From Branchiostoma floridae (taxonomy: Eukaryota > Chordata > Leptocardii > Amphioxiformes > Branchiostomatidae): a stretch of DNA of 64,000 nt. Below, piece by piece: positions 6,001 through 58,900 of the stretch (its first letter is position 1; the number at the start of each line of letters is the position of its first letter). The stretch spans positions 23,449,249-23,513,248 of the forward strand of contig NC_049980.1 of the NCBI RefSeq assembly GCF_000003815.2, given 5' to 3'. The notes beneath the pieces are model-generated. The model saw only the letters and a program-made list of their open reading frames with translations. It made no database searches and was not told where the DNA came from. Made by a program: the position numbers and the translations under genes.

Positions 6001-9000
6001 TAGATGAAATTTTGCATATGTAATGATTCATATCTCTATGGGTTATGTTGCAAAAAACAGCTCTGAACTAATTTTGGTTTTTGATTTAAAGGTGTTTGAA
6101 CTGAGNNNNNNNNNNNNNNNNNNNNNNNNNNNNNNNNNNNNNNNNNNNNNNNNNNNNNNNNNNNNNNNNNNNNNNNNNNNNNNNNNNNNNNNNNNNNNNN
6201 NNNNNAGTCAGGTGTGAAATGGAGCCAGATGAGTGTCGCGCAGTGATCCGGTTTTTGTATTTGAAAGGACGCATACCAAATGAGACTTTTGATGAAATAA
6301 AAGAAACTTATGGTGATGATTCCCCATCATATGACGCTGGCATTGTGAATTCAAACATGGCCGGAAGTCTGTGGAAACAGCTCCCAGACCTGGTCGTCCC
6401 TCTTCTGCCATTGATGAGGCATCTGTTGCAGGACCAACCTGGGGCGTCCTACAAAAACGGTGTACAGAGCTGCATCAAACGATGGTAGAAATGCATAACT
6501 CTGGGTGATTCCTATGAAGAGAAAGACTAATAACTGCACCAAGTTTCATTAATCTCCTTCTTTGGGAAATGGGTCAGGTGGATTACTTCTTGAACGCCCC
6601 TCGTATGTATAGCATCCTTATCCTCTAATGTGCAATGATTTATCTTTTCTATAGGGTAATGTTTATGCTGAGCAAGGCAATGGTGAGTGTTTTTTAGTGT
6701 TAGTGTACATGTATGTATATTACCTGTGTCTTCAAAGGCTATGAAAACTATAGTTTAAAAGTAGTCATATGAAAAAACTACTTAACGTTGATATCATGTG
6801 GGCCATCCAAACTAATCCCTATGAGGCATCCAAATTCCTTTGATACAAAAATGTACTATACATGTCAATTCATTTGTTGATGTTCTCATTGGTCAATGAT
6901 CTGTGAACTCTCCTTCTGATTGGATCGGGTGATAGATGAATTGAACACCAATGATTTTCTATGTGTTATGGCATCATGAAATAGGGCCTTCTGATTGGTC
7001 AACATTGCCTGGCTATATGATAATGAAGAATAATGTCTTTACCCTGTATCTACTCTTTTAGCTCAAAGACAAAAATCTAGTTTGAAATTGGCCAGCTACT
7101 GGAGCTGCTCAGGGATTTATGAGAAACATATCTTTTTTTTTATCTCGTGTTTTCAGCTTCTGCTGATGGACAAGAAGTTCCATGAGGTCCACCCCCTGTT
7201 GGCTCTGTGTAACAGCATGTTGGAGTCCTGGACTGGACACCCCACTCATAGAGAAACACTCAGAGTGTATCTACTGGTGCTGCAAGTCACCAACTTCCTC
7301 ATGGTTGGACAGGTAAATACAGCACACTTCTCTAGCTAGTTTTATTTTACAAAAAGAATGCCACAGGAATTAACACCCTTTTGGAATGATATATGATGTG
7401 AAACAATGAAACAAAAGGCAAATGACAACCTGATTTCTTTGTTTTGCATGTTGACTTTGTAACAAGAAACAAAGCTTGTTATCCACAGAAATGAAGAAAA
7501 AAAGAGTTGGCTTGGCCTAGCCTGATAACAATGCCTGACAATCCAATTTGTTTTGAAAGCTCATGTTCATTACTCGGGTAAAAAATCATGATGTGTGGCT
7601 AAGTCACACACTATGGGCTGGTGTCAAAGAACAAGAGTAGATTTCCTTTGCAAATCCCCTAGCTAAGTTAGAAGCCTGATTGAAAGTGTGTACACGATGT
7701 TAATCAAGTATTACCTTTTATAATTTTTTTCAGGTAAAAAGTGTCAAACCGTACTTGAAACAGTTGCAGCAGAGTATACAGACCATCACAGCTCTCCACA
7801 CAGATGACGAGCCCCCTCCTTCCCACCCTGCAGACCTGTTCCAGTGGCTCCCCAAGGAGCACATGTGTGTCCTGGTCTACCTGGTGAGTTGTTCCAGGAT
7901 CAGGAAACTTTACTTATCTGTCAGTTATGTGTAGAGCTGCCTCCAGCTTTAATATTTGGTCCCACTTATTGTTTGGGTGGCCATTTTGTTTATTTTTGGT
8001 GTTAAATCTGTCGTTTTGAGTTTAAGAAAATGCATTTTTTATTAATTTCATGTTATGAAGTTCAGGTTGTGGGTATGGATGGGTTAAAATATTTATCTGT
8101 ACCAATGTATGTCCCAGTATGGAGGGACGTATCCTGGACACATCACTGGTTATGTGACAGTGTATATATGTACATAAAAAGGCTCTCTGTTTTAACACAC
8201 ATGTACAACACTGCTTCCATGTCTCCAGGTTACTGTGATGCACTCCATGCAAGCAGGCTACATGGACAAGGCACAGAAGTACACAGACAAGGCCCTCATG
8301 CAGATAGAGAAACTTAAAAGTAAGTGCTCTTGTATACTTCCACACTATCAACTTAAACATGAGAAAAATGTATTTCCTCATATTCATTAGGTTCACTATT
8401 ACAATTACATGTATTGGCATAATCTCTAAGAGGGTGCTTGCTGGTAGAGCCATACAATTTAATCTCTTGAGCTGTGTATTCTCTTGAATCTGTAAGAAAT
8501 GGCGTTCAGTGTCCCACATGGATGTAGATGCTTTCCTAATTTGACACAAGGTAGTCATTGCCTTCTTTAAAAAATCTTAGTAGTAAATGCTGTTTGTTTC
8601 TTATACGCAGTCCTGGACTCCAGCCCAATCCTGTCCACCTTCCAGCTGATGTTGTTAGAACACATCATCATGTGCAGACTAGTCATGGGGCAGCAGTCCA
8701 TAGCAGTGCAGGAGGTGGGTAGACTGGACACTCATACATTCCTCTGGCTATAGTTATGTACTCTCTTACTTTTACAGTAACATAATCAAAAGGGTATACT
8801 GATGGAAATACTGGAGTAACTATTTTATATTGTAATGTTAAACCTTCTTGGTACGATTAATGTGACAGATCTCATGTTATGCTCTTTCCTTTTTATTAAT
8901 CATTGAACAAACATCAAAAGACAAGGAAACATAGCAAAATATGCATTACTTTCTTCTCTCACTGAGAGTACATTATTAGGCAATATTTTTCACATTGCAG

Positions 9001-23143: not shown

Positions 23144-26100
23144 ATGGATGCCTCTCCAAAGCCAGCAGATAGGTAAGACAATAATTTGTAGCTGATGCTT
23201 TTAGAAGACAGTATTCAGAGTTAAGATTGTATGGGAAAAACAACCACATTTGTCATTACACTGATTTAAGGAGTAATTTGGATAACCGTGTTGTTATATT
23301 GAATTTTCTGGACCCATTTCAGTGAGGCAGCCAATGCAGAGGTTCCAGACAAGTCTGAACTGCAGGAGGAGCCTGAGAAGGCATCAGAGCAACCATCACC
23401 ATCCAAAAGGTACTGTAAATGCAAGTTCGCGGTATCGGGAAAAATAATTTTTTGCGGTGGTTTCAAGTTCGTGTAGTCTCTTACTGAGTCTTAGTGCCAT
23501 GGAAAAATTAACATTAAACCTCCTTGAAAGTTTCTGCATTTACATTAGGTAGTATCATACAAGTGAAACACCTTAAAACAATTCACAAATAAACTTTTGC
23601 TTTTTGATTGCTGTATGAATCCTGTTTTGTTGTATGTTCAATACCAATTTTTTTTAAAAGGAGTGAACAAACAAAAACATCTTTCAAATTGTTGATCCAC
23701 CAGACCTTATGAAAAGGATGACTCAGACCAAGAGGAGACAGCAGATGCTCAGGCTGCAAAGAAGCCAAAATTGGACACAGATGCAGGAACAGAGGTGGAA
23801 GCAGAGGCTACGACATCATCAGAACAGTCTGCTGAGCCTGATGCTGAGGTTGAACCAAATGCTGACCCAAAGGAGAGCGCAGACATCGAAACGGACAGCA
23901 AGGCTGTGGAGGAAGGGACTACTGAAGCTGACAGCAAGGCTAGATCTTCTGAGAATAACACCGAAGATGAAGCCAGTCAGGACAGTATGCAGTCCATGTC
24001 CAGTAAAAGTTCCAAGCAGAACCCAGACTCCACCACTAACGAGCAGGATGAGGAGGTGTTGGACTTTTCCAGGTCAGCTCGAGATGCCAGCGACAGTGAA
24101 AGTGATAGTGAGAGGAGAACAAGGAATGCCATCAAGAAGGAGCCAGTTGACCACATGGATACATCAGAGGCTGTTAATGGGTAAGTTTTCTTTGATTTCA
24201 TTTGTAATGAACCTTGACATTTTTTCTCTTCAAGTAGTTTGAATTTGCTATCTGTACTTTTTTAATCTTCTAGATACTGTTAGAAACAAACGAAAAACAC
24301 ACATACAAGGTTATCACATGGTCTTATCACGAAGACCTGAAGTAGAGGGCTAGGAATATTGCTGACTGTCGTGTGCTTTGTTTGTAGTGATGCCAACAGA
24401 ACGGAGCCCAGCAGCCGAGCATCTTCACCTGACTGCATCGTCCTGTCAGACGACTCGGATTCCAAGAGTCCAGTCACCAATGGACATGATGAAGACGCAG
24501 CCAGCAAGTCTGCTAACAAAGGGGAGAAGAAGAATGGCCTAATGTCTGCCGAGGATCACGACAAGGTCATTAAAAAACTGAAAGAGGAGCTGAAAAGTGA
24601 AGAAGCCAAGCTTATTCTCCTGAAGAAGATTCGACAAAGCCAGGTTCAGGTACAAAGAGAGAACACAGCCCCAGGTGGTAAAGTGGCAATCCCACGGCAG
24701 CCCACAGCGAGTGGCCCACCTCCGCTGGTCCGCGGTGGCCAGCAGCCCAACCAGAGGGGCCAGGCCGGCATGCCGCAGCTCATGAGAGGTCCCATGGTGC
24801 AACAGGCTCGACAGCAAGGTCCGCCACCACTCATCATGGCGCCGCGGGTAAGCACGCCGAGCGGGATGAATGCCAACAACATGGTTGGGATGCGTGGCAC
24901 CAACATCAACATCATTCCGCTGCAGATGATCCGCCCTGTCAATCAGAATTCTGTTGCCGTGACGACATCCAACCTGTCAGGGTCGTACCAGCCCATCCAG
25001 GTGCACCAGGTGGCCTCGCAGCACCCAGGGACCCCGCCCAGCCAACAGCAACAGGCCAACGACCCTCAGACCGCAGCCAGCAGACAGGCGGCCGCCAAGC
25101 TCGCTCTCCGCAAGCAGCTGGAGAAGACGCTGCTGCAGATCCCTCCCCCCAAACCTCCGCCACCAGAACTCACATTCCTGCCCAGTGCTGCTAACAATGA
25201 GTTTATATGCCTGATTGGGCTGGAGGCAGTGGTGAACAATATCCTGGACATGCAGGACCCCAGTAGGAACGCAGTACGGGCCCAGCCCGAGCCTCTGTTC
25301 TGCAAGCAGTGTAAAACAGACTTCTCCGCCATGTGGAAACAAGAGAAACCAGGAAGTCCAACTGTCATCTGCGAGCAGTGTGTAACAACCAACCAAAAGA
25401 AGGCACTCAAGGCAGAACATACCAACAGACTGAAGACAGCATTTGTCAAGGTAAGACACAAAATGTACTCACTCAAAGCAAAGTAGAAGATGAACGAGAT
25501 GATCATAACAGAAAACAAATAGCACTTCGAAGAGATTCATGGAAAGCCTTCTTGGTTGATTTTTGTGTGGGCCTGCATGGTATTTTCACACCATCTGCTT
25601 TGGCTGTGTTGTTGGCTGGGATTTGGATATCCATCACTTTAACCAAGATTTCTTGTTTTTTTCACAGCTCATTGCTTGTCTTAATAGTTACCAATAACAG
25701 AGCATTACTAGCTCGATAATGATTTCAGTACTTCAATGATCCAATACCAGAAAGTATCTCGGAGTAGAGAGTGATGAGTGATCATAGAGGTAAACAAAAG
25801 CAACAGCAAGTTTTACTGTGAAGGTTTCTGGGTTGTGAAGAAATCTCTATGTTGCTGCTGTTGTTTTCTGCCCAGGTTAGTTCAGTGATGGATCTCCAAA
25901 CCAGTGCTGATCACTACCTGGTTTGTTGTCTTACTTCCTACTGTGTTTGGAGTGGAAGTTTAGATGTCCCAGCACACCTTTTGTTTGCCCCTTGATTAAG
26001 TGTTGTGCAGTTATGGAATATTCTCCCACCAGAAATGAAACATGATCACATGATAAAGCATGAAAATTTCAAATAAATAAAAGTCAGTTAACTTGTGTAA

Positions 26101-31490: not shown

Positions 31491-31496
31491 TTTATT
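31491..31496 (-). terminator. Poly(A) signal of the MINAR-like gene
   Basis: TTTATT on the + strand is AATAAA on the minus strand, about 315 bp after the stop codon at 31811-31813. It is the first such signal downstream of that stop. Confidence 0.6.
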
Positions 31497-31810: not shown

Positions 31811-34800
31811 TCAACGGTCTAAGAAATTAAAGTAGTATAACGGGAGAACCACAGCCATGACGAACAGTCCGAGAAGTACCAGGATACCCAGCACGCACAG
31901 GAAGGCCCTCAGTACGTAACGTCGTCTCTTCTTCTCCAGGGTTTTCCATATAAGGGTGTCGTACCCGTGCATGATGACATCGGTCGTGTCGTACAGACGG
32001 CTGGACGTTTTCTGTAAAAGAAATATGAGGTATAACGTTGATAAGATAGCGAGGGGACGGACAGAAATGTGAGGACGTTGTGCTCTTCTGATCAGCCATT
32101 GCAGCTTTTTATCTGGACATGTTACACTAGCTTATGAATGACAGTGATAATCGCATACGGGTACTAGTGCTTTCCGTACCCCTCTGGTATCATTGACATG
32201 ATTTATATTATAAGCTCTTTCTTACATTCCCGATCGATAGCGTGCATGTAAATCTTTTGAAGTCCCCGTTTTGGGTCACTAGTTCATGTAGTACTAGACG
32301 TAAGCTGTATTCAGAATGTACTCATCTGTTCCAGTGGAAATGCAGGAGATGGAAACTGATTTGGCCTTTTCAGAGCTTCGAGTTTTCTCATTTGCTAAAA
32401 ATAGGCTTCAATGTGTGCGTATTTTCTTAATGAAAGAAGCTGCTTACCTTGTCCTTGTTTCCATCAGTTTTATCCTGTGTGCGTGCATTGTTGGACTTCT
32501 GTAAGGAGGCGTTCTTAACAAGTTGCGGGAGAGGTGCCCACTTGACGCATCCGTTAGCTCTCTGTTTTCCCGCAGGGCCGTTTGCTAAGATTCCGTTTTT
32601 CCTGGGCCCATATTCAGATTTGTGAAGTCCGTCCACCTTTGAGAAACCCTGTTTTCCCGAGTCCTGCGGCACGATGACGTCACCGTTGGTGCCTATGTGG
32701 TGCGACTCCGGCGTGTGAAACTCCGGCGCAGCCTCCTTTGTTTGCAGCGACCTGAGGTGATGGACGTCCAGGTAGTTGTAGGTCCCGTAGTGAGTCCTGG
32801 CGACGTGCGAGCCGGAGTTCTCTGAGTACAGAGGGTTGAACTTGATCCCAGCCTTGACCTGCTCAGGGGAGATGTGGTCCCCGAACACCGCCTGGATCAC
32901 CACATCGCTCACCTGGTCTTCCTGGATGGGCTGAAAAATACAAGAATGTGTGTTAGAACGTATTAAGCAAACGTCTGACTGGGGTTTGACATTTCTAACA
33001 TACAGTTAAAGCAATGACAACCATATAAATTCAGTCACATCCAGTCACTATTCACTAGCTCTGTCAGGAGGCCGTCGTCTCTAGTTTCCAAAAACAATTA
33101 TACAGTATTAACAAATCGAAATAAGAAATAGTCTCACATATAGTCAACCCAAAGAATAAAGAGTCAACGAAGCCATTGCAAGCATTTTAAGCTCAATCAT
33201 TGCTCGGAAGTACACATATCGGCAGGGAGGGGCTATCAGACTATATAAGGTCTTCGAAACGAAGCGACAACCCAGGAGAGCAACATCTCCTGGTAACGTT
33301 ACAGCTATAGCGCTGGTATATCATGCTAAAGGGCAAGGGCAAACAGATGAAAATACAGAGGTCACAATTACGGTTGTCGTCGGTCGACAAGCGACCTTGT
33401 CTATAAGCCGTACCAATGCAGAAGAGAGTACGTAGAAATGTCACGACCCGAACCTGCAAAAACCGATCGTCACCAGGGACAGCTGTTGCACGGAGAACTG
33501 GCATTGGTGGAAAGCGCCTTAGCCAGTGGCTTTCTGTCAACAAGAGCTCAGAACCTACAGGCGTAGATCCGACATACACATGTGACTACACCAGCAAGGA
33601 AGAAATGCTCGACAGTCAAAACAACCTTCCTAACGTCCCCACATATAGGGACCAGAAATCACAATTCATACCACAAATTACAATAAAAGATTAACAAGAT
33701 TGAGATAGCTGTTCACCTTAAAGTTGCTTTCAAGCAATCGATCACGGAAGAAGTAGATACGAATAAGAAACAATATACTGCTTTAGGAGTCCTACCTCAA
33801 TGATTCGGCTACTGTGGCGGTTGGGCACTGCTTGGTCGGCTTTTGATACTGTCTATTGCCACAGCTGGTAAATCTGCTTGGAGATTATACTCAGGCTAGC
33901 TTATGAACGGTAACGACGGACCTACATGTTAGTGACGGTAAGGCAAAATAAGGCGAACTTCAGCTAGTCCAACTGGCACGTCAGAACGGACCTCCAAAAC
34001 GTAGTCACAACTCAGGAAAACAACATATCCTAGTAACGTTATCGCTATTGTGATACGCCTATCCAGCAACCAAATCCACTTGAAAATTGATATCTGACAA
34101 AGAGAGCATTATGACATGTGACCAAACGTGCCCCCATCTATTGAACTCGGTTTTGCCCGTGAAAGCTTGTTGCGACAACCCATTTAAGTAGGCATAACCT
34201 TAAACAAGGAGGTTAAAGAATAACATAACACCAACAATACTTATTTACTGACACGAATAGAGAATACCCTATCCCTTTGTGTGTTTTTAAGGTCGCCAGA
34301 TGATGTACTATAAAAAAAATTATTATTCGATGTTCCAAATGTTGAGAATAGCAGAGAAAATCGGACAAAATTCCCGCATTTTTCTTTCATAGGAAGGTTG
34401 AAAATGTAGATAGAACGTTCATGTCAGGAGTGCATGTAACCTGCAGTATAGTCGCAGCCATGTACGTATAACATCATGACAAATTAATTTGTAAATAGCG
34501 AGAAAAAGCTTAAGGCGATATATGGAAAACATATTGTTATTTCGGTCTTTTATGGCTCAAGCTCGAACCAAATGAAGGAAATGTGTGACCCTGTGACTCA
34601 GTCGACGATCGAGCTGTGAACGTGTTTCTTCATTGCCAGGAGCTAATAACGTCGCTGAATTAAAAAAAAAAAACACCACAGACTCGAGCATATTTTTCAC
34701 CTAAAAATTGACCCCATTGTGTAACATTGGACAGAGGTAGGGGACCTGCCGCGGAACATCTAAAATCGCACGGTGACCGAGAGATAAAAGACATAAAAGA

Positions 34801-35864
34801 CAATGCTTCCTGATTTATTCCGGTTTCTTTCGTTAAAAAGTTTCCGCTCAGGTGCCTACACAACCCACAGGGTCAATGTGGTCAATACCGAACCAGATCG
34901 CAAGCCAGGGGAAACCAGCTGAGCTCAAATGAAAACTAGTTATGGCCAATGGTATATAATTTGTGCTTTTCTTTGTGATGATATCCATATTGTTTGTATA
35001 CTTTTGTCAATGACCACCTACTACAGCGGAGTACACTTACTGGATTACAGAAAACAAGTACACTTATCGGTCAGGACTCAAGCGCACTTAACCTTAATCG
35101 TATCAAAAATTTATGCTGACCTTTAAAAGATTCAATCAATCAAGACGTAGCCTTTATCGGGCGTTTCCTTTTCATTTGCAGAACTAAAAAGATGAAAGCG
35201 TCCCTGTACCCGTGTCACTAGGCACACCTGCATCCTTTGTTGTCCAGAGAAAGTAGTTGTACCATATTTACTCTGGACTGTCCGTCATACCGGGTCACCA
35301 ATAACGTTTTACAAGGTAAATACCTCAAAGCAGGCTAGCACCGTGCGACCTTTCTCCGCTTATTCCGATCACCACACATAAGCACGGAGGTTTCGAAGCC
35401 TCCATGCTATAAAAAGTCAACCGTCGGGGCCAATTTTCTCTCAACCGCATGTTGATCTAGGTGCATGTGGTTTATGACAAGAAGAAAAAACATTCCTTTT
35501 TTACACAAACATTATCACAACGTGTACACACACGCCAGGTAAACAAGCCTGGCTTCCTTTAAAAGCCTTGTCGAATTGATTGCCGCTAGGTGGGTCCATT
35601 TTAACATACCATGATGCCCTCCACTATATCGAGCGCGACCACGCAATGGCTGTGTTTTCCACCTACCTGATTGTTGTTGTCGACTGCCTTTTGTGGGCCA
35701 TTCTTTACTTCTGTTGTCTCCTTTTCTCCTGGGCCGACAATTCCCGATTTCTCCTGATCACTGCCCGAAGATGTCACTGTTTTGAGGCTGGGGACGTTTT
35801 CTTCTCCCTCCATGTCCGGGTACAGGACGTACTCTAGTATGCTGCGGGCGGCTTTCTTACTCAT
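31811..35864 (-). CDS. MINAR1/MINAR2-like C-terminally anchored membrane protein
   Basis: Exons in coding order are 35864-35667 (ATG, 66 aa), 32930-32448 (161 aa) and 32011-31811 (66 aa plus TGA), 293 residues. Residues 1-225 are polar and low in complexity, with an NPLY motif at about 98-101 (KFNPLYSEN). Near the C-terminus HGYDTLIWKTLEKKRRRY is followed by one hydrophobic segment (about 263-288) and only five more residues. By the positive-inside rule the long N-terminal part is cytoplasmic. From memory, vertebrate MINAR proteins have the same order: NPLY, a G-F-D-T-L motif, a basic stretch, then a C-terminal membrane helix. MINAR1 also maps to human 15q, like EDC3, IQCH and AAGAB. The exon structure is well supported; the family assignment is a proposal. 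Confidence 0.6.
32931..35666 (-). other. Intron 1 of the MINAR-like gene
   Basis: A 2.7-kb intron with no second gene recognised. It contains a solitary MITE end (33830-33887). It also holds two diverged copies of a segment reading CTCCTGGTAACGTTA / TCCTAGTAACGTTA near 33286 and 34028. Confidence 0.6.
33830..33887 (+). mobile_element. Solitary end of the TAATCTCC fold-back MITE family
   Basis: GGCTTTTGATACTGT...AATCTGCTTGGAGATTA matches the right arm of the element at 19882-20058. I find no opposite arm nearby, so this is a truncated copy. Confidence 0.65.
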
Positions 35865-38476: not shown

Positions 38477-38652
38477 GCATTAATGTTGAAGAGGTCAGAG
38501 ACGCCTTTTCCTTGCTTGTCAAATGAAATCTGTTGCTGTTTATTGTTATATTTACTGCCAGGCCAGGTAGTCGCTTTTGACTGATATTACTACCAAATTT
38601 AATTACAGACTGTATATTGATTATTGCTAATTCCTCTTTTTCTCCCCTGTAG

Positions 38653-41600
38653 TGCAATAGATATTAAGGATTTAAAGATCCTGAAGTCACCTGAAAATGG
38701 AAAGGTAGTTAAGGTCCAGAAACCCAGGGTTAGTCTGGTATCGGCTACTCCTAAGAAGAAAAAGGAGCAATCTTCAGGAGACTCCAAGAAGTCTGAACAA
38801 ATAGGAGATGCCAGGAAGACCCCCAATGGAGAGTACCCCAAGAAGCAGAGCTATCCTGGGAAGGGCCAAAATGGCGAGATTGCAGCAAAGAGGGGCCAAA
38901 ATGGACATGTTGGAAAACCAGCCAATGAGGATTCCAAGAAGAATGGGAATGACTCCAGGAAGAATGGCAGTGATTCCAGAAAATTCCTGGAGCAGATGGG
39001 GGATGTTAGAACCAGCCAGATATCTCCAAGAGACTTTGGAAATAGGGACCAAAATGGAGAGGTGATGAACGGAGGGAGCAGAGAGGGGACTCCCACTAAG
39101 ATGGGAAGGAAACGGCACAACTCATGTGAGTGTCACTGTCACAGATTTTCCTGTTTTAGTTAGTGTTAAGGCCACACCAATTTAATCTCTTGGTTCACGG
39201 ATTCGCTCGCTCCTATTTTTTGGAAAGAAAAATAAAAATAAAAATTACCACTCAGCAAATTTTCACCATTAATGAAACCATTCACCAACTTTCTGGTGTA
39301 GCAAATTGGCCTTTATATCATAAGCTCCTTAAAGTGTGCGTACAGGTGCTGTTACTGTACAATAATAGTGTTTTTGTACTTTTTTCAAGCTGAAAACTTT
39401 TTTTCCTTATGTTTTGCATTAGCCGTTACCTTTACCCCAACCATTTTACAATTTTTATTTTCATTTTTATTTCGCCCTCTCGCGCCATATTTTTTATGAA
39501 AAAATCCGTGAACCAAGAAATTAAATTGGTGTGGCCTAAGAGCTATGTAGCCAAAAAAAAGCTCTGTTTTTTGTCTCATTGTTATGTTATATTAGGCCAC
39601 ACCAATTTAATTTCTTGGTTCACGGATTCGCTCGCTCCTATTTTTTGGGAAAAAAAATAAAAATAAAAATTACCACTAAGCAAATTTTCACCATTAATGA
39701 AACCATTCACCAACTTTCTGGTGTAGCAAATTGGCCTTTATATTATAAGCTTCTTAAAGTGTGGGTACAGGTGCTGTTACTGTACAAGAATAGTGTTTTT
39801 ATTCTTTTTTCAAGCTGAAAACTTTTTTCTTCATGTTTTGGATTAGCCGTTACCTTTATCCCAACCATTTTACAATTTTTATTTTTATTTTTATTTCGCC
39901 CTCTCGCTCCATATTTTTTATGAAAAAATCCGTGAACCAAGAAATTAAATTGGTGTGGCCTTAGAAAGCATTGAATGTATTCAGGAACCATTGTTTTTTT
40001 TCCTTTCCAGTCTCTGGTTTTGGACGCAGGTCTCAAAACACGACTCCCAAGAAGTTTGAAAATGGACGCCCGAGATCCAAGACTAAGCTGGAGAACAACA
40101 ACACGTTCTCCCCGATCTCCCCAACAGTTATGAATGAAGAGTTTGACTTTGAGAAGAACCTGGCACTTTTTGACAAGGCAGCTATATTTGAGGAGTTGGA
40201 CATGTTGAACGGGCAGGTCTCAGAGACTAAGAAGCCTCAGAACTACAGACATGATGAGAACATCCTCGGTGACCAGGAGGCAGTAGTGTATAGACAGATC
40301 ATTGTACCACAGCAGAGCAGCATGGAGTTTAACACAGGTACTCACAGTAGTAATGCTAAAGCATAGTTTAATTAATCATTTCAATGTTCTGTATGTATCA
40401 TATCTATAGCAGGCAAAGGCTGAGTCATAAAGAAGTTGTCAATGGCTTTTTTAGCAATAACTCTTTTTGGAATCATTTAACTGGATGTATTTTAGTGCAG
40501 TACTCAATGCCTTTCCAGCTTTATCCCTCGATCAGCTTGCATTGGACTTGTTGGCTCTGTATCTTGAGTCTGCATGTTTTTTACCCATGTAGATTGTGGC
40601 CTGGTGGTCCCTAGTATCTCCTTAGAGCTGAGAAGGAGGTTATATGGGGCAGCAGAGAAATGTGGGTTGTCGGATGAGAAACAGCTAGAGGTGATTGGTA
40701 TGTGCAGCAGTCAGATGGCACTGCAGCTGCTGGGTGGAAGCAGTAGGTATGTTGGGACTCTTCATGCAGTTTTGCTATCTCTTGTGAGATATTTAACATA
40801 GAAGTACAAAGAGCATAACAACTTAATATTCAAGAGTCAGACTTCAGACTTGTTTGTATCTTGTGACCATCTGATATGCAATCTCGAAGGTGACACGGTT
40901 GTGAAACATGAAGGCTGAAGTATTGTAATTTTTGTAATGTTTTACTTAGTAGTCTTGAGCAAGTGTTACTTCAAAGTGCTGTTTTTCTTTAAGATGTGTG
41001 ATGTACAAAATGGAGTTGAGAAATCTTGCGAAATAACTCAAGAGTGTTACCATCACCTTATGAGGTTGATGCCTACTACTGTGACATACCTGTCTTGTCT
41101 TCCTCCCAGGCTGAACCCACGTAACACCCATCAGATGCCCTCAGTGGTGGTCCTGTGTGGCCCCCACAGACAGGGTGCCCAGGGCATCAGCTGCGCTCGG
41201 CACCTCGCTAACAAGGGAGTCAACGTTACAGTGTTCCTGCCAAGCTTCAAGAAGATGTTGGAGTGTCTGACACTGGAGCTGCAAATGTTCAACATGACAG
41301 ATGGTGTACACACTCCAAGTGAGTATGTTTAGAGTGATACATTGTGGTGAAAGTAGTTAACAAGTTTGGCAACTTTCGACTGGATGTCTGATAGGTGTAC
41401 AGGTCTATGTTTTTTGAACTGGCGATAAAGCAGTTTGACATTTGCCAAGCTAATTTTCTCTATTTGCTCAGTGAATACTGATAATACTGTTGCCCCCACA
41501 GTACACACAGGTCTTCCCACAGAGCATGTGGACCTGATCATCAACACGTTGGATGGACAGGAGAGTGCGTTTCTCAGGGACCAGGCCTGGTACCGCAGTG

Positions 41601-41854
41601 TGGTGCAGTGGGTTGCACAGAACAAGGCTCCTGTGCTGGCTGTCGACCCTCCCTGTAATCCACCGAATTACCCCATCCAGCCCAAGTGGTCCCTGTCTCC
41701 AGCGCTGCCCCTTGCGTTACCAGAGGCAGCTGGCACACTGTACCTCTGTGATATGGGGATTCCAAGTAAGGTTTACGCTGAGGTGGGGATCAAGTACAAG
41801 TCTCCGTTTGGCCACAAATGTGTCATTGCCTTGCACCACATTAATGCTTCTTAG
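38653..41854 (+). CDS. EDC3: EDC3, enhancer of mRNA decapping 3, 5' exon missing
   Basis: EDC3 is the P-body scaffold that activates DCP2 and binds DDX6. Exons are 38653-39125, 40011-40337, 40593-40746, 41110-41318 and 41502-41854 (TAG), about 505 residues in continuous phase. The first visible exon begins at the end of the LSm domain (IDIKDLKILKSP), so the LSm exon lies upstream. A long Asn/Lys/Gly-rich linker follows, with repeated QNGE and (N/D)SRKNG units and RRRHNS-like KRHNS. Then come the FDF motif (EEFDFEKNLALFDKAAIFEELD region, DDX6-binding) and the YjeF-N Rossmann domain (SQMALQLLGG, LCGPHRQGAQGISCARHL, AVDPP, KSPFGHKCVIALH). The first intron carries two nearly identical MITEs. Confidence 0.94.
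39170..39536. mobile_element. PIF/Harbinger-type MITE, copy 1 (TSD TAA)
   Basis: The 367-bp element has inverted ends starting GGCCACACCAATTTAAT, continuing as TCTTGGTTCACGGATT, about 33 bp with one mismatch. TAA flanks both sides (39167-39169, 39537-39539). GG-start ends and a TWA duplication indicate PIF/Harbinger. There is no transposase; the small open frames inside are AT-rich chance frames. Confidence 0.93.
39595..39960. mobile_element. PIF/Harbinger-type MITE, copy 2 (TSD TTA)
   Basis: The 366-bp element differs from copy 1 at only a modest number of positions. It lies in the same orientation and starts 58 bp downstream. Its target duplication is TTA (39592-39594, 39961-39963), different from copy 1. 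It was therefore inserted separately rather than arising by tandem duplication. Confidence 0.93.
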
Positions 41855-47323: not shown

Positions 47324-48572
47324 GAGGGTCTGCATGGGGGGGTCTTGGTAACGCTTAACGGTGAATTCAGGAGGCCCGGTAACGGTTAACGGTAAATTCA
47401 GGAGGCCCGGTAACGCTTAACGGTAAATTCAGAAGGAGTTACAAAACATAACACCGTTGAAAGTAACATTGACGTGCATTCCTATTCATACAACGCTGGA
47501 GTAGTTATATCAATGGGGGAAGATATCCGACTAATGACAAAGCAAAAGGTGCCCAGAATCCGGAGGAATGACAGGGACGATGTCCATGGCATCTGTAAGT
47601 TGACGGAGGCAGAGTTCCCGGCTCGCCACAGAGACGGCGGCAGCAAATTTCTTATGGAGGGATCGAACGATTGTTTCAGCACATGGATCGCCGAAGGCGC
47701 GAAGCATCCCAGGGGGGTCCGGGGGTATGCTCCCCCAGGAAAATTTTAAAATCAAGACCCTCTTAAAGGCTGTTTCCTGCATTTTCGGCAAATTTTGCCG
47801 ACTGACTAAGCTAGGTTGATTTTGACATTTTCATCAAATTACACAATGATTTTAGCTTTGGCCTCCACCCCCAGAGCCCCCGACATATTTTACCATTTCG
47901 AGCTCAGAAGGCACGAAACGTTGCATTATAAGTCCGGGAAAATTAAAATCTGGACCGTCTGTAACACCATTTACTGCATTTTGAAGGACACATTTTGCTG
48001 TAAGACAAAGCTAAATGAAATGACTTTTTATTAGAGAGAAAAGTTTTTTTGTGCCTACCCACGCCCCTAACATATTTTCACCATGTCATCGTGAGTGCCA
48101 AAGGCGCCAGCCGTCGCAAGGAAGGTCCGGAGAAACCTCATTTTCTGCATTCTAGGAGTACTTTTTGCCCGAAACTAAGCTAAGTTTACACTGAAATCTG
48201 TTTGAGTGATAAAGTTTTTGAGGGCGACGCTTCCGCAACATATTTTACCCTGTCCAGAGCCGAAGGCCGGGAGGCTCGGAGAAAATTTTGAAATCTGGAC
48301 CCTTTGAAACGCCATTTCCTGCATTTTCCGGGGTTCTATCTGGCATTTGACTTCGTGTATGTGTGTATAACGGGTTACGAAGAATTTCTTGGTAACGCTT
48401 AACGGTGAATTCGGGATAACAAATAACGGTTAACGTTGAATTGAAACGACCAATAACGCTTCACGAAGAATATACCGATAACGATTAACGTTGAATTAGA
48501 GCGGGTCGGTAACGATTAACGGTGAATTAAAATGGCTCGTAACGCTTAACGGAAAAAGGCATGCAGACCCTC
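47324..48572. mobile_element. 1249-bp element with 6-bp TSD and TAACG(G/C)TTAACG subterminal repeats
   Basis: The ends are GAGGGTCTGCATG and CATGCAGACCCTC (13-bp perfect inverted repeat), flanked by TAGTAA on both sides (47318-47323, 48573-48578). Both subterminal zones carry arrays of GGTAACGCTTAACGGTGAATT-like units: three on the left (about 47346-47432) and about six on the right (about 48390-48552). The centre has about four diverged units of roughly 170-200 bp sharing AAATCTGGACC and CCTGCATTTT. The 91-codon frame at 47474-47749 is unrecognised. The superfamily is not assigned. Confidence 0.8.
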
Positions 48573-48578
48573 TAGTAA

Positions 48579-49965
48579 TGCAGTAAACTCACAGAAATAT
48601 TGCCACCCAGTATGACATTGGTATGGTTCTAGATTATTTCTCTAACTGAAGCTGATGTAAGATATAGACAAAGCCTTTGAGCAGACAAGAGTGACAATGT
48701 GCAGTTACAGAATCATGCTTTAATTGGTGAAAATATTGACATAAGATAATGAATTTTTTCTATATACATAAAAACTCTGTACTAATATCTTACAATGGGG
48801 TACCAAACCCTCAAACTCTTTACAACCACATCACAGCTTCTAATTGCACTCCCCTACACTTGAGAAAAGCAATTTGTTTATTTGGTTCACGAAATTAATG
48901 CTATTGGAAAAATTGCAAACCAAAGATAAATGCATGCACAAGCAAACCATAAGGTTATTGGTAAGAGCACAGCAAAGTATAAAAACATACATTTGTATAC
49001 AGCATTTTTTGATCCACTTCAACAAAAAATCTTTTGAGTGATTTCTTTCAGCGAGTAAAGTAAAAATGCCTGGATGTACCAAAATGTCAACAGACAAAAA
49101 TAAAGCAGAGAAATCTATATGCAGCATAGTGAAATAAAACGTTTAAACCTCAAAACAGATAAAAATAGAATATACCTTCCAGCAACAAATCTTTTGGTAA
49201 ATTTCTAGTTTTATTGCTTCTCATTATTCATGGCACTGAATCATGTATAGGACTGATATACACATCTAAAAGCATGTGAAAAGGGCTAGACAAAATATAT
49301 CTTTTTAAATGTTACATTTGTCATGTTTTGTACAAGCAGCAAGTTAGGAACAATTTCGTTAGTGATGCTCTTATTTGAAAAAAAATTGCTACAACTCGAT
49401 TCCAACTTTAACATTACATATTGGCACCAGTGAGATACTATACTCTTCTTCCCAAACTGGTAACTCTTAATTTGGCAAGACGCAACCTCCGCAACTTTAA
49501 AACTTGTTTAGCTGGTTGCTTAGTGTACAGTGAAAGTTTTCATTATTACATGTAATGTTATGTCTTTATTTGTGTCATGTATAGATATATAATCTATAGA
49601 TAAAGGGATATTCACTTTAAAAGTTTTCCTAATTATGAGTGACCAGAATTTTCACATTTTTTGCATGCCTTNNNNNNNNNNNNNNNNNNNNNNNNNNNNN
49701 NNNNNNNNNNNNNNNNNNNNNNNNNNNNNNNNNNNNNNNNNNNNNNNNNNNNNNNNNNNNNNNNNNNNNNNGCTTCTGTTGCCCTTAGGTTCCCCCCAGC
49801 CCCTTCTGTTCTGCCCTCATATTCCCCCCAGCCCCAGTTTCTCCTACTGCTCCCCTCATGTTCCCCCCAGCACTACAGTTTCTCCACCCCCTTATGTTCC
49901 CCCCAGTCCCTACAGTTTCTCCTCCCCCTCATGTTCCCCCCAGCCCCTACAGTTTCTCCTCCCTC
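48579..49965 (-). other. IQCH 3' flank / 3' UTR
   Basis: Downstream of the IQCH stop on the minus strand. Reverse poly(A) signals TTTATT occur at 49565-49570, 49210-49215 and near 48878. AT-rich, with no other gene recognised. It includes the gap and most of the minisatellite. Confidence 0.4.
49672..49771. other. Assembly gap (100 N) at the minisatellite edge
   Basis: A run of 100 N directly adjoining the 37-bp minisatellite, suggesting the array collapsed or was not assembled through. Confidence 0.99.
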
Positions 49966-49984
49966 TCATGTTCCCCCCAGCCCC
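49790..49984. repeat. Minisatellite, six units of 32-39 bp
   Basis: TTCCCCCCAG recurs at 49790, 49822, 49861, 49897, 49934 and 49971, separated by TACAGTTTCTCCTCCCC-type sequence. The innermost unit overlaps the last codons and the stop of IQCH. On the + strand each unit resembles a polypyrimidine tract plus AG. Confidence 0.9.
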
Positions 49985-52900
49985 TGCTGCTGCTGCTTCT
50001 CCTCCTCCTCCTCCTGAGCCTCCACCTCCTGCTGCTCACGCTCCACGTTCTGGATAGTCGTGCCCAGGATACCCTCAATGTCTGTGATGGCAGCCTGGGA
50101 GAGACGAAGTGGAAACAGGATATCAGTATTAGAATTCTGCAACTCAGTAGTAATGAAGTGGCAACTAGTAGTCCATGATGGTACTCTACCCTAGAACTGT
50201 CTTGTCTATATCTAGAATGGAAATGAGTAGGTGGCCGGGAGGTGACAGGATCTCAAGACTGTGGCACCCACTCACTCACTACCCGCTAATGCAAACAAGT
50301 TGTGCCCCTGTAATTAAGAGCCTGATAACACTCATAGAACTGAGCCTACCTTAAAGTTGGTCTCTCCCTGCATATTTGGTGCAGAGATCTCCTGGTGGAT
50401 GACTGACATGTTCCTGGCAAATGTGGCAAGCGCCCCCTGGAGACTTTCACCAACAGTGCTGTAGAGAAAGATTATAATGCTTATCAATCTACTAACTACT
50501 GATACAAATTTCAGGAACAAAGGCCTGTGTTATCACTGTTTAATTCTTGCAAATGCAGATTTTAGACAGAATTATAGAGTTGTAGACTTACAGCATGCCA
50601 ATGTGCTCTCTCCTGAAGCTGTCCAGAAGGGTAAAGACTGTCCCTTGTTTCTCCTGAGGATGGAAGAAGGGATTTGTATGATTACAATTTTAAACAAAAG
50701 TAAGCTTGAGTACTAGATATTTAAAACAAGAAATGATAGCTTCTTACAGGAATATCTGTAACGTCAAGCCTAAAGAAATGACTATAATAATCATTCTCAT
50801 TCTAGCTGACAATTTTTCAACATCAATGTATCCATATCCTTCTAATGACAAGCCTTGTTCCCATACCTTGATGTCAAACCCAATGCCATGTGCCCTGCAC
50901 ATCTGGAAGAACACGCTGTAGTGGATGACAGTCAGGTTACTGTGCAGCAGCTGGGTGCTCATCACAGCATACCGAGGCAGCGGAGTCGGGGGCTGGCAAG
51001 GAACAACATGGCTTTCAATTATTAACTTTTCTCATCATGGTGGACAGTCACTCATAGAGTGATGATCTTTATTTGCATGTTCCTGCCCATGTAGGCTAAG
51101 TGCAACAAATCCCATGATGGGATACTAAAGACTAAGTACTGTTAAGTAAGTAAGTACTAAGTAATGCGAGTGAAGTGAGTCTACTGGCTCAGAGTCAAGT
51201 CCTTTCTCGTCATAATTGGAGGTTGATAGAGAATTTCTGAACACACGAACAATAAATTGAGGCCTCTGCTTTTTCATTTTAGGTGTCAGACACTGCAGAA
51301 TATGCAAAAACAGGAATATCAATCTGACAAAGAATGCACTTCTGCAAGATATGCTCACCTGTTCCTCCTCCTCTCCTCTCCTTCTTCTCCCATCCTTCTT
51401 CTCCTTCTTAGGTAGTGGCGGGGCCTGGATCACACAGTTCTCAGCATCAAAGGTGCCGGACGTCACATACAGCATGAGTTCCCTCATCCCTGTGGAGTCT
51501 CCATAGGACAGGTTCAGGTCTGTTGCCCACAGGACCTGGAGAAACATCAACAACCATCAACTGTGCTGAACTGTGGAGGGGGAATATCACCATTTTTCTA
51601 CATATTGTTTTATTTATGGGCAACACACTAAGTTAGATTTGAAACTCTCAAAAAATATGCAATAATAATATAGTCACATTATCTTTGACTAAACACCTAA
51701 ATAAGTAAGTGTGGTTTTGATGTGTTTTTTGTTGTTGTTGACAAAAGCTCACAACTAAGATTAAGTTCTTCAGCCATACTAGCAGGACAGTCTTACCTGT
51801 TCCATAGTTTTGGGGTCAATGAAGGTGACGAAGTCCACAGAGAAGTATCCCAAAACTCCTCTGGTGCGGCAAGACTCTCCTATTCTCATACAGCACTCAT
51901 TCAGCACCTGTTAGAGAAAAACATTGGAGGATTAACCTTGCCTTTTTAAAGATTGTGTTCTTGATGATAACTATGAAATACTTTTACACATTTTGAAATT
52001 GTGGTCTAACCAGGCTAGGTTTCAAGCCTTTACTTCTTCCATTCAAGCTTGTCTTGCAAGCTTGCTGTAACTTCAACATACTGCCTTTTCCACTTACTTA
52101 TCAGACAAAGTGTTTTATTACTTTTAGTCATGCCTCCCATCCCTCCCATCTCTCACCTGAGGTTCTACAGAAGACTGAGGCACAGAAAGGCCCCAGCTCA
52201 CAAATGGCCCCTCCGCCTTGATCTGGTCACCGTTGGCAACCATCCGGATCTTCCCAGTCGGCTCAATCAACATTTCGGCAGACAGAGTTGTCACACTCTC
52301 TGACGGAGGGCAGGCTTCAACAATACCTCCTGTTGTAGGTGAAAGAAAGTGAACTGTCTTTATATCATTTTCTCATCCTTCACATATCCTTCTCCAGTTG
52401 ACGTTTAGTCTGCAGTTACATCTCAATTCAACTACAAACTGCTCAAAATGACCACTCAGGGGACTGATAAAATCTGTTCTATAATAGACTATATCAACAG
52501 GTGGTCACTCCAGACAGGAGTCTTAATGCTTGTGTCAATGGAAAAAATGATAATTGTATTAATCAAAGTGGCCATGTTGGCCTGGTGGTCCTTATGCAGA
52601 GGGTCAGGTTTTATGGTACTTTATTACATTTACTTAGTAACCTAGTTCACACCACAAGTTGTAAGCAGCACAAGACTTAACATACAGTGCCATAACAAAC
52701 AATAACTGTTACATAACTTTTACTGACCCTGACTGAGGAAGGCCTCCAGGAACTTGTCCCATGTTGGGAACCTTTTCCTGTTTGCAGGAACTCCAAACTG
52801 ATCCAGGATGTCTGGGATCTCTGCCTGGATCTTAATCAGAGCTGGCTCCTGTATGGACAATGGTGAGATCATTTAGCCACACTTCAAACCTCTTCACCGA

Positions 52901-55900
52901 AGGAGAACACCTTTCATTTCTATTTTTATGGTGTGTCATCTGCTTGTTCCCTAATTTTATTGCTGATCACAGATAGTTCCAGCTTTAAGTTACAATTTGT
53001 CACTTATCATAATTGAATCAGCGATGAAAGACTGTTCTGGAAGTCAAACTTTACTTGTTGAGCCTCAGAGGATGATTAATGATGATGATGACAATTGAAT
53101 CAATAGAATTATCAATTACAAAGTGTGACAAATGACAATTTTGAAAGCAATCCTAAATATTACATTGCATGCCTTCTGAGTGAAACATACCTGACTTTGA
53201 ATAAAGAACTTGTACAAAATGACTGCTCATGAGAAATGCCACCTACATGTGCCCATTTCTTGCTCCATTTCTCCCCGTATCTGTGCTGCTCCTTGATGGC
53301 CCACTTGTAACAGTTGAGATGCTCCACCACGTCGCAGTAAGCGATGCCCCTCCCCATGTACTCATCATCCAGCTTGAACAGCCACCTCCGAACATTCAGG
53401 TTCTCAGTCACCAGCAGGGCCAGGGACTCGTGCAACTAGGGTCAACAGGGCAGAGATTCAGCATGAACTGATATGTCTTACCAACATCACAAGCCAAGGA
53501 GTAAGGAAGATGTGAACATGGTTTGTCCACAGACCAGAAACAATGGATATGTGATGGATTGAAATTTTAACATTTTTAAAGATATAAAAGCTATGGTTTA
53601 TAGAAGTCATTGAAACATTTAGCCAGTGGTAGAAAAGTACGAATCAGAGAGTCCTGAGCTCCTATGGGACTGATTTCTAATGATAAAGAATACTGAGCTC
53701 CTATTGGTTGCTCTGGGAGTGGGACTGTTCTATAGAGTTGGAGGTGTGTGGCCACAAGCTCTCGGGGAGGAGGCCCAATCAGCCCCTTATACCAAGAGAC
53801 ACAGGCCACTGTCCCAGCTTGCTGCACTTGCCATTACCTGTTGGAGACTGTAGATGTCGTACTCCCCAGGAGGGGTGTCCACCTTGGCACTGGCAAAGAT
53901 CCTCTTGGAGCCAGACTTGGTGGTGTAGAGATGTCCCACCTCAGGCTCACTCCCCAGGATTGGCACATCTGCAACAGGACACACGTATCACTTACAACTC
54001 TGATCAGATCCCTTTGTGGACCACGTAAAAGCCGTAATAACGATTTTTTCAGGTTTATGTTTTATCTATGCTTCTCAGACTTGATAAACTACATAATAAG
54101 ATGCTTGAAACAGCTTCTCCAACAAAGTAATGGTAGCTTCTTGAGATGGTACAAAGATGCAGTAGGTAGATTGGCCATACTTAATATTCACATCTACAAG
54201 TCACAGTGTTCAACCTAAGTAGAGTCTGCTTTACAACTTACCCAGGATCTGTGACACTGCCAGGTCATCCTTGTGCATGACGCCTGGAACAATGTAAGCT
54301 TCTTTCCCTTTGATCAGGTTCCTTATTCTGGAATAAGATGGAATGAGATGATAATATCAGCTGACCATGATAACAGTGTCCTATAAAAGCATAGAAATGG
54401 CTGCTGTCTAAGGGTAGAAGCACACTATTTTCTTCAAACAAAAACCTGACATGTACTGATGATAATCACTATCACAGTAATCCAATGAAAGTACATTGAA
54501 ACTTGAGTCTGTCCTTTTGCCAAATGATGTCACCCTACGTGTATTCTATATGTTTCTTATTGCTTCTGTATAAGATGCCCTCAAATGCACTGAAAACATA
54601 ACCTTCTTGGCAAAGTTAATAATGGACAATAAAATATGACATGACAACAAACCTTTGCAAAGCTTGTGGACTGTACTTAAGATGGGTGGCTAAACACATG
54701 GAGTGACTCTGTGAGGGAAACAGGAAAACAATCAATGAGCAAAATAACCAGAAACTACCAAACAAGGACTGAACAGCAACAATTTGCTCCAATTGTAATA
54801 TTTTGTATGAAAGCATATAAAAGTACATAAATGCCTGTCGAATCTTTCTATGAAAAAAATCATACCGGAAATTTGTCAAAAGCCTCTGGAACAACAATCT
54901 TGTATCTATCCTGCATGTCAGACTGGTCCTCTACTGCACCAGACTCCACAGCAGGTCTGAGTCCTAGCAGTTTGGAGTAGTACTGCAGCATCTCTTCACT
55001 CATCTCCACAGGAGACACATAGATCACATCCACCTGAGGATCTGGATGGAAGATATTGCTGTTTTATACACAATAATTTTGATAAAAGATGTAATGAAAA
55101 ACAAATGTGGACACTTGTGTGAACTCTTTACAGATCAATAAAAAGTATGAAAAAGATCAAAAACACAAACTTACCCCTGAGGTCACATAATCTTGACATC
55201 TGCGTGTTCTGCTTGATTCCAAAGTCCTTGATAGAATCTCTTACTGCCTGGCTATAGCCTACAGGGGTGACAAATAAAATTACTATGAGAATAATAGAAA
55301 ATAATAAAGATTAGTAAAAGAAAATCACAAAAGACTTCAGACCATCCAGAATAGTTATTCCTACAAGAAGGCATATATTATGTCTCTCATGATTATCTTC
55401 AACACATGGTACTGACCTAGGGAGGGTATATGGATGATTGTTCGTCTGGATTGCTTTATCTTGTCCCAAGAGTCAGAAAATACCTGCAAACATATAAACA
55501 CAACATTGCAGGTTACTTCATCGTCATGTTACAGGTTACTTACTTTTAAGAAAAGAGGACTACCATGGTATAGGACTTACACCACTGGCCTACAGTAGAC
55601 AATGGAATCTACCACATTTGTCTAACTTTTCAGGGCTGTCTTTGAGTACTTTTCAAAGCCCTGAATAAATGCTACATAGATCCTGTCCATTATCGAGTTA
55701 ATAAAAGTTAAGACTTCCCACCTTCCTCCTCCTCCTGTAGGAGTCCAGCTCGTACAGCCTGGTCTCCTTCAGCTGTTTCCTGATCTTGGCCATCTTGATG
55801 TTCATGATCCAGGAGATGGCGATCACCCCTGCTGCCCACTTCCTCTGTCGGTAGCTCACGTACGAGCTACGCGCCGTGTACCGCTTCCACATGGCCTGGA

Positions 55901-58900
55901 TCTTAGCAGCGGCTACGTGCTCACCGTCTGGGCCCAGGAACCTCCGACCCTGGAATGAGAGAGGGATTGTGTCAGGAAAACTTACTCTCTAATGTACCAC
56001 TGTCAACATCTTTCTTCCATTTCACACGTGGGGTGGGCATCCTGGAGATGGCCTCAGTCTACTTGTTGCTTCCCTCTCTTGAATAATGTTGAACTTTTAA
56101 AATTTCAACACAGATATACAATGTATTTCATGAAGCCCCCACAATCTCTGCTACTAACTAAGATGGCAGGCTATAATTTATGCACATACATTGATAATAT
56201 ATGGATAATATACAAGGCCCTTGTCAGGAATCCTACGTAGGTGAAACTAGCCGCACTCTCAGAACCAGGTTTCTAGAGCATAGATGGCCCAGCTCAGTCA
56301 AAACATCGGAGGTGGCACAACACATCCACATAGAATCTCCGGGACACTCAGTGGATTTCGACAAGGTGGAGATACTTGATTCCGAACAGGATTACTTTCT
56401 CAGGGGAGTGAAAGAGGCTATTTACATCAGAGCCCATCAACCTTCCCTCAACCGAGACGGGGGCCGATACCGACTGTCAAGCACCTTTGACCCTTTACTG
56501 ACGTCACACTTCCGTTCCGGAAGTGCGACTTAGGTCTTGGGTCATTTCAACTTGAGAAGGATCAGAGGACTGATCGAAAGCTTGTTGGTAAGCGCTTTAT
56601 TTTTGTGTACGGATATAAAGTCTTAAATTAAAATCGTATCATTATGATAATATACAAGTATACATTTACTTGTGTCCTGTAGTTCATTAAGAACTTAAAA
56701 GTATAACATTGCCCACTTACAGGTCTGCGAAGGATGGCTTCCACATCGTCCCTATTGACGATAACAGACAGCAAGTTCTCCTTGGTAGGAGCTTTTTCCA
56801 GCTCAAACTCCAGGGCCAGATCAGCCAGCTTGTCTCCATTGATGAAGGCAAGGGGCACTGCAAAGTCTCTCAGTAGTCTCAAGAGATGCTCCAGGGCTGT
56901 GATGATGCTGGGGAAGGAAGGTAACCATAGTTCAGTTCAGTTCATTGTGACATCAGTGTCATCGTGACAGAGAAGAACCATGCCAGCCATTTCCTCATGG
57001 CGCATTTCATGTCCTGCTAGTGACACCCCAAGACTACAAAAGACTGTTGAAATCCAATGCAGGTCACCAGAAAGTTGAATCTTTGTTCTTTACAAAGTTT
57101 AAAATTTCATGGTCTAATGTCATGTTGTTGGAAAGCTTACAGAGCAGACCAATTGATTGAAGTAAAGTTTGTTCTATAAGGATTGAAGAATGTTTGAATA
57201 GCCTTGTCTCCTTGCCTTTGTTTAAAATGTCCACACAAGACAAGTGACTACAATTACAAATGACTTTGGTTTAGGGACAAGAAAAGAAGCAAACATCCTG
57301 TTGAAACCTTTGTGTTATATCAAAGCTGGATTAACATGTAACTGATGTAAAAAATGTACACAAAGCCAAGCTCTCACCTTCCCCAGGAAAGCACGTAGTG
57401 TTGTCTAAAAGCCACAAAGTCTGGCGCTTCGTCTCGGATGCCGCCATTCTGGATAGCGAACCTGTGGCCACTGCGCTTGAAGTTGACCGTGCTGGCAGGA
57501 GTGGTTGGTGGTGGCTGAGATATGATGGAAATAATGACCAATAAAATCTACTTCTTCAGATTAAGCTACTTCCTGAGGTTCCAACAGCAGAATATGTGAT
57601 ACATGAATCCTAAAGTCTAGAATAGTTTACTGTTTAGTCTCTGAGTATCCTTTGGGATTCATCAGATTATTAGTATGCCTCAAAATCTGCAAAAATAAAT
57701 ACCCATACTAACTTTAAAGCATGTACATTGCACAAGCAAATCACATCATAAAGATGTACAAAATAGAAAAAGAGACTTTCTATGTCTGTTACAAGCTGAG
57801 CTCACCAATGGTTGCAGCTGAGCCTCGAATGTTTTGACCTGAAGTGGGGTCTTGGTAATCCTGGAGTCTGCCGTTTGTGGCGTCTTCTCTGGTTTCTTGG
57901 TGTCCATGGAGTCCAAGGACTTATTGGAAGATACATCCAACTGTAAAGGGCATGGCAAGGTTAGCACTGATTCATATGGAAGTTTTCTTTATTTGCAACA
58001 CACATTATGGGACACTAAAATAGATAAATGGAAACTTTACAGCTTTTCTTGTAAAGACTCAACTCAAAAGCATTGATTTTTTAACTTACCTTAACTTGAG
58101 CAAGGTTGAACCTTCCATCTGTGAGCAGAAGAATGAATGGTTAGAGCAAAATGGAATATGCAACAGGGAATCTTGTAATGGATTGGGTGACATAAGAAGG
58201 CATATGCCCTATTCTATTCTCAAGTGAAAATAATCTACCAACAACATATTTACTGTAAACAAAAAGGGGTTGTGCCAGTGCTATAAGAAAGATTAGCCTC
58301 TTCCCTTGTCCAAAACAACATGAAAGGGTTTGCTATGAGAACACCATTATCCACCTCCACCGTACCTAGTGTTGGGTCGGCACCTGCTTTCTTCGGCTGG
58401 AACATCTCGGCCGGGTCATGGAGGGGAGCCACGCGGTGCTTCACAGGGGAAGGGTCAAGGGTGAGCTCAGCAGCAGGGGGGATGAGACCCCTCTCCATCA
58501 GACTGAGAATCCCCTTCCTGGCGTCCCGGTCAGCGATGGGGGGAGGGGGGATCTGAGGGTCCACTCTGTTGGCTCGAGGCAGTACTGCAAGGTGGTCCAC
58601 TGTGGTACCTCTCATCAGCTTGGATGGTGATGGCTGTGTCACGTGGTATAGCACATGTCATTGGAATTAGAAAATAATGTGCTCTTTGGAATCAAGCTAG
58701 CAAGCTGTTGACAAGAACTAGAGGCAGTTTAAGTAGATACCTTTGGAATATATTTCTAACAACAACGTAACCTTACCATAGCAATACATTGAAAGGGGCA
58801 ACCTAAATCTGTGTTTTACATCGATAAGAACTCATCCTGATGCAAGGCAATTTCCGACAGCAAAGTCCAACCCACCTGTTTTGTTTCCCTCTTGTTAATG

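Follow-up and report, generated by a model that had tools for sequence, protein, structure and literature searches.

MINAR1 (also UBTOR or KIAA1024) and MINAR2 (KIAA1024L) are vertebrate proteins of the UPF0258 family, represented in Pfam by PF06789. Published work is cited below by PMC number, from excerpts of each paper. MINAR1 carries a C-terminal transmembrane segment at residues 896–916 of 917 (PMC9245706, PMC6095612), and its DEPTOR-binding part is N-terminal (1–467; PMC6095612). In the mouse, MINAR2 binds Raptor and keeps mTORC1 in check (PMC10267597), and the authors of the eLife study thought mTOR regulation likely to be specific to MINAR1 (PMC9714970). In the excerpts concerned, one study detected UBTOR/MINAR1 homologues in vertebrates only (PMC6095612), and another limited MINAR2 orthologues to vertebrates (PMC9714970); the latter statement could hold even if a pre-duplication gene exists. 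The excerpts searched from a study of MINAR1 in interneurons made no mention of conservation. We found no paper in the open-licence literature that links MINAR1, MINAR2, UBTOR or KIAA1024 with amphioxus or Branchiostoma; database annotation could already list such a gene. Here, we describe a minus-strand gene at positions 31811–35864 of a 64,000-nucleotide stretch of Branchiostoma floridae DNA (contig NC_049980.1, bases 23,449,249–23,513,248; the window is this whole stretch), which is very probably a lancelet (cephalochordate) member of the MINAR/UBTOR family (UPF0258, PF06789). Its probable place is as sister to the pair formed by vertebrate MINAR1 and MINAR2.

The gene encodes a protein of 293 residues in three spliced exons (35864–35667, 32930–32448 and 32011–31811). 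In a comparison with the Pfam library (24,736 models), the full protein matched PF06789 (MINAR1_C) with 26.1 bits (E = 9.5e-6), and the curated gathering cut-off of this profile is 25 bits. This match over the cut-off is the decisive evidence for the observation. It was split into two stretches, the best one covering columns 15–57, which we attribute to a long linker that is absent from the profile. In a linker-less construct, from which residues 110–193 (32550–32801, minus strand) and the N-terminus had been cut, a single stretch aligned to columns 20–157 of 160, with 28.8 bits (E = 1.5e-6). When the N half of this construct was shuffled, the family was matched in none of five cases. Shuffling the C half, with the helix composition held in place, gave 18.3, 19.8, 19.8, 20.0, and 24.8 bits in the five shuffles that were run out of nine made, and the match then ended at columns 57–82. 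These controls indicate that the N half holds most of the PF06789 signal and that the C half contributes about 4 to 10 bits. The sole other Pfam family listed, FANCI_S3 (PF14677), showed a weak, non-significant likeness to the linker and exon 3 region (13.1 bits with the whole protein, at most 16.1 bits with fragments; cut-off 25), and was rejected as a better family.

The human MINAR2 sequence used in all pairwise, chimera, and spacing comparisons was a reconstruction and not a database entry. Its length equals the published 190 residues, it agrees at six of six published residues (W48, K131, R138, W112, Y117, and K107), and it scored 133.9 bits against PF06789. The tyrosine of NPLY falls on column 55 of the profile in both this sequence and the lancelet protein. 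Grafting lancelet exon 3 onto human exons 1–2 gave 77.7 bits and extended the match to column 157, compared with 67.9 bits without exon 3 and 68.4–69.7 bits with shuffled exon 3 (all four shuffles). In direct comparison, the exon 3 region matched human MINAR2 with a BLASTP E-value of 8e-4 (12 of 51 positions identical). In a separate shuffle test, the exon 3 score was reached by none of 2000 shuffles.

The exon structure provides a test that is independent of the profile, namely the agreement of the exon 2/3 boundary. In human MINAR2, exon 2 closes with c.393, which is the third base of the Lys131 codon (PMC9245706); the human intron that comes next is therefore a phase 0 intron following Lys, and 59 residues remain. 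Lancelet intron 2 is in phase 0 after Lys227, with 66 residues left. Counted from this junction, the G-F/Y-D-T-L motif starts at residue 17 in human MINAR2 and at residue 16 in the lancelet protein. Profile mapping would put the human counterpart of intron 1 roughly at residues 58–65. The candidate MINAR relative proposed in the initial annotation is thus supported as a member of the family by the PF06789 match above the cut-off, by the contribution of both domain halves, and by the boundary shared with human MINAR2; its reading as a single pre-duplication copy is plausible.

With MINAR2, the lancelet protein has in common, besides PF06789, NPLY, and the phase 0 boundary after Lys, a small size, the G-F/Y-D-T-L motif followed by a charged stretch, and a C-terminal helix with a short tail. 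It differs in its length (293 versus 190 residues), in the long linker after NPLY, and in its low identity. MINAR1 belongs to the same family, the C-terminal domain PF06789 bears its name, and it shares the C-terminal transmembrane segment. In contrast, the lancelet protein has just 97 residues before NPLY, which leaves no room for the DEPTOR-binding N-terminal part of MINAR1.

Both introns are bounded by GT-AG, lie in phase 0, and have consensus splice borders. Exon 1 (198 nucleotides, 66 residues) starts with ATG at 35864 and had no match in Pfam when compared alone. It is followed by intron 1 (32931–35666, 2736 nucleotides), with the junction CAG/GTAGGT...TTTTTCAG/CCC, where slashes mark the exon borders. 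Exon 2 (483 nucleotides, 161 residues, residues 67–227) contains the segment ending in NPLY (residues 98–101) and then the long linker. Intron 2 (32012–32447, 436 nucleotides) has the junction AAG/GTAAGC...TTTTACAG/AAA, the exon ending after Lys227. Exon 3 (201 nucleotides including the stop, 66 residues, residues 228–293) carries GYDTL, KKRRR, the transmembrane helix, and a short tail. Three AATAAA hexamers follow the stop on this strand; the closest, a candidate polyadenylation signal, is at 31491–31496, and the other two start at 31318 and 31207. The GC fractions at the three codon positions of the coding sequence were 0.558, 0.371, and 0.667, compared with 0.42 and 0.40 for the two introns overall; at the third position, they were 0.576, 0.702, and 0.672 in exons 1, 2, and 3. 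Among the GT and AG sites in the enumerated ranges, 324 splice combinations leave the frame open between the chosen start and stop, and the model was picked among them by eye for its consensus splice sites, without a scoring program. Splicing reproduced the three-exon, 293-residue protein described earlier and placed it on the minus strand, which had not been stated. The length of the open reading frame was rejected as evidence: frames of at least 160 codons arose in 15 of 40 windows simulated with a first-order Markov model.

The motifs reported in the initial annotation were all present in the spliced protein: NPLY starts at residue 98, GYDTL at 243, and KKRRR at 254, followed by one C-terminal helix. 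Hydropathy peaks at residues 265–283 (Kyte-Doolittle 19-mer, 3.17); in windows that start at residues 1–237, no 19-mer mean exceeded 0.54. The tail after the helix measures approximately five to nine residues, depending on the helix end chosen by eye. AlphaFold2, run in single-sequence mode, modelled exon 3 as a single long helix (exon residues 5–65; mean predicted local distance difference test score, pLDDT, 79.7) and exon 2 as disordered (mean pLDDT 34.2). By computation, the protein has a single C-terminal anchor and a long, probably disordered remainder. A search of solved structures yielded no relative, the three matches all having an E-value of 1.3.

Several results weigh against membership in the MINAR family. 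The full-length score lies just 1.1 bits above the cut-off of PF06789, compared with the 133.9 bits of human MINAR2. Exon 2 alone reached 16.6 bits, under the cut-off, exon 3 alone did not match the profile, and one shuffle of the C half scored as high as 24.8 bits. The graft cut after GYDTL gave 69.7 bits and ended at column 94, with no gain over the shuffles; the gain therefore needs the anchor region, and GYDTL on its own does not decide the matter. Taken alone, the soluble part of exon 3 was weakly similar to human MINAR2 (5 of 2000 shuffles reached its score), and the pairwise likeness around NPLY alone, reached by 46 of 2000 shuffles, was rejected as too weak. The published cholesterol pattern of MINAR2, discussed below, was not found in the 293 residues. 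A genome search with the family model matched nothing, even this locus, and is hence uninformative. Short motifs recur in disordered proteins and a helix after basic residues is common, which, together with the narrow excess over the cut-off and the single high-scoring shuffle, would favour convergence, that is, an unrelated lancelet protein, tail-anchored and disordered, in which the likeness of NPLY, D-T-L, and the C-terminal helix to MINAR is accidental. We nevertheless regard convergence as very improbable, given an E-value of 9.5e-6 among 24,736 models, the colinear match over columns 20–157 in the linker-less construct, and the independent agreement with human MINAR2 in intron phase, last residue, and spacing. 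On the presumed human positions, the neighbourhood is also compatible with family membership.

The gene could be the orthologue of one vertebrate paralogue only, for example MINAR2, if the duplication preceded the lancelets and the second copy lies elsewhere or was lost. Its three coding exons and its 293 residues, nearer to the length of MINAR2 (190 residues) than to that of MINAR1 (917 residues), would fit such an origin. However, MINAR1, which we take to lie on 15q, and MINAR2, at 5q23.3, fit a pair produced by vertebrate whole-genome duplication, and amphioxus is described as having undergone no large-scale duplication in the excerpts of Simakov et al. (PMC7269912). We therefore consider a one-paralogue origin quite unlikely. 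Another reading takes the lancelet protein to handle cholesterol in the very way suggested for MINAR2 in hair bundles, through a caveolin-scaffold-like pattern that recruits cholesterol. Family membership is in its favour, and strings resembling CRAC and CARC motifs occur, though loosely (3 and 12 matches, CARC overlaps counted); with so many in one protein, these were rejected as uninformative. The cholesterol role of MINAR2 was tied to a small-S/T-aromatic-S/T-aliphatic-x-x-aromatic pattern that includes W112 and Y117 in the human protein (PMC9714970). This caveolin-like pattern is present at 110–117 of the reconstructed human sequence but absent from the lancelet protein, which makes the same mode of action unlikely.

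In the mechanism that we propose, the C-terminal helix would enter the membrane of the endoplasmic reticulum or endomembrane system after translation, as a tail anchor, and approximately 255 residues, mostly disordered, would stay in the cytosol. Partner proteins might then be held at this membrane by the conserved parts, namely the NPLY-terminated segment and the G-F/Y-D-T-L motif with the charged juxtamembrane stretch and the anchor. The most likely role would be regulation of mTOR complexes, as reported for MINAR1 (through DEPTOR) and MINAR2 (through Raptor). By this analogy, a disordered adaptor that is tethered to the membrane and acts on mTOR-type signalling is the mechanism that we favour, though we rate it somewhat below an even chance. 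The topology, compartment, and partners of the lancelet protein are inferred from vertebrates. Most residues of UBTOR are described as cytoplasmic (PMC6095612). In another paper, MINAR1 and MINAR2 are introduced as proteins with an extracellular domain and a short tail in the cytoplasm; for MINAR2 in the endoplasmic reticulum, however, the same paper puts the short C-terminus on the lumenal side (PMC10267597). MINAR1 without its helix (896–916) still stabilises DEPTOR; without residues 852–916, it does not (PMC6095612). The latter deletion spans 65 residues, which is about the length of lancelet exon 3; the juxtamembrane module is therefore the leading candidate for a functional part common to both.

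The NPLY had also been proposed as a docking site for phosphotyrosine-binding (PTB) domains. The canonical PTB ligand is FxNPxY with a hydrophobic residue at −5 from the tyrosine, and some PTB domains use other contacts. In the lancelet G-I-K-F-N-P-L-Y, the residue at −5 is Lys and that at −4 is Phe, which renders the docking proposal weak.

The window contains 122 open reading frames of at least 85 residues, a chosen part of which was scanned against Pfam. On the side upstream of the MINAR-like gene, plus-strand exons of EDC3 were identified at 39965–41854, comprising FDF (39965–40363, 39.3 bits), YjeF_N (40919–41329, 46.8 bits), and a YjeF_N match just under the cut-off (41429–41851). A fragment was identical at 63 of 109 positions to an EDC3 chain in the PDB, which we take to be human; we judge this identity too low for a vertebrate source. 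The two genes are divergently transcribed, the first Pfam-supported EDC3 exon, near 39965, being approximately 4.1 kb from 35864. Between these positions lie a gap of N at approximately 38.2–38.4 kb and a plus-strand open reading frame (38621–39163) that by eye is possibly an earlier EDC3 exon. The opposite flank carries a plus-strand GATAD2/p66 exon (24341–25486; P66_CC, 53 bits), with a GATA finger just under the cut-off. MAU2 lies on the same side; its Cohesin_load match reached 28.4 bits on joined fragments and 18.0 bits for one open reading frame alone (cut-off 25.8). Minus-strand IQCH exons span 51128–55988, with ATP-grasp_IQCH at 53163–53435 (87.5 bits) and two matches just under the cut-off (51128–51556 and an IQ motif at 55701–55988). 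An AAGAB-like gene was named tentatively, its two exons having no supporting Pfam match; it runs on the plus strand from approximately 61.8 kb, head to head with IQCH, the pair spanning 51128–62624. IQCH and AAGAB are presumably head to head on human 15q23 as well, possibly a conserved microsynteny pair. By eye, we also took 38621–39160 for an EDC3 exon, 50747–51031, 56631–56936, and 58253–58657 for IQCH exons, and 23696–24181 for a GATAD2 exon; these open reading frames had no support in Pfam.

We take EDC3, IQCH, AAGAB, and MINAR1 to lie on human 15q, and MAU2 and GATAD2A on 19p13. The 15q neighbourhood suggested in the initial annotation therefore held in part: EDC3 and IQCH (by Pfam and PDB matches) and AAGAB (tentatively named) agree with it, and MAU2 and GATAD2A point instead to 19p13, all human positions being presumed. 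Chicken chromosomes 28 and Z presumably correspond to human 19p13 and to parts of human chromosomes 5 and 9. MINAR2 is located at 5q23.3 (PMC10267597). According to the excerpts of Simakov et al., BFL2 derives from linkage groups J and C, chicken 28 from C, and chicken Z from C plus L (PMC7269912). If the chromosome of the window is BFL2, these data are consistent with descent of MINAR1 and MINAR2, by whole-genome duplication, from a gene on that group.

Elsewhere in the window, a plus-strand match to HTH_48 (Mos1-type transposase) at 6207–6485, beside a run of N, scored 23.8 bits against a cut-off of 24.1 and is likely a mariner-like remnant. The plus-strand open reading frame 56198–56533 resembles by eye the GIY-YIG endonuclease end of a Penelope-like retroelement, with no Pfam match at E 0.1. 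A proline-coding tandem array was found at 49773–49985 (37-base unit, 4.6 copies, 87% matches), together with overlapping 32- and 39-base arrays. Two 31-base arrays (47347–47436 and 48479–48552), approximately 1 kb apart, have units that share the core TTAACGGT and are perhaps remnants of one repeat element. At the gathering thresholds of Rfam, no match was detected in the window.

The MINAR family is tied to deafness and growth control. A lancelet member would shift the origin of the family back to the chordate ancestor at least and would supply an outgroup for telling which features are ancestral; this would correct current knowledge by a small step and would not establish a new type of system. 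It would also suggest that the juxtamembrane tail-anchor module predates the cholesterol pattern linked to hearing. We tentatively propose, as a scenario with appreciably less than even odds, that the family is pre-vertebrate, that the juxtamembrane tail-anchor module and the NPLY segment formed its original core, which served mTOR-type regulation at endomembranes, and that the hearing-related cholesterol pattern was added later. If this is true, lancelets would preserve a human deafness gene in its pre-hearing form.

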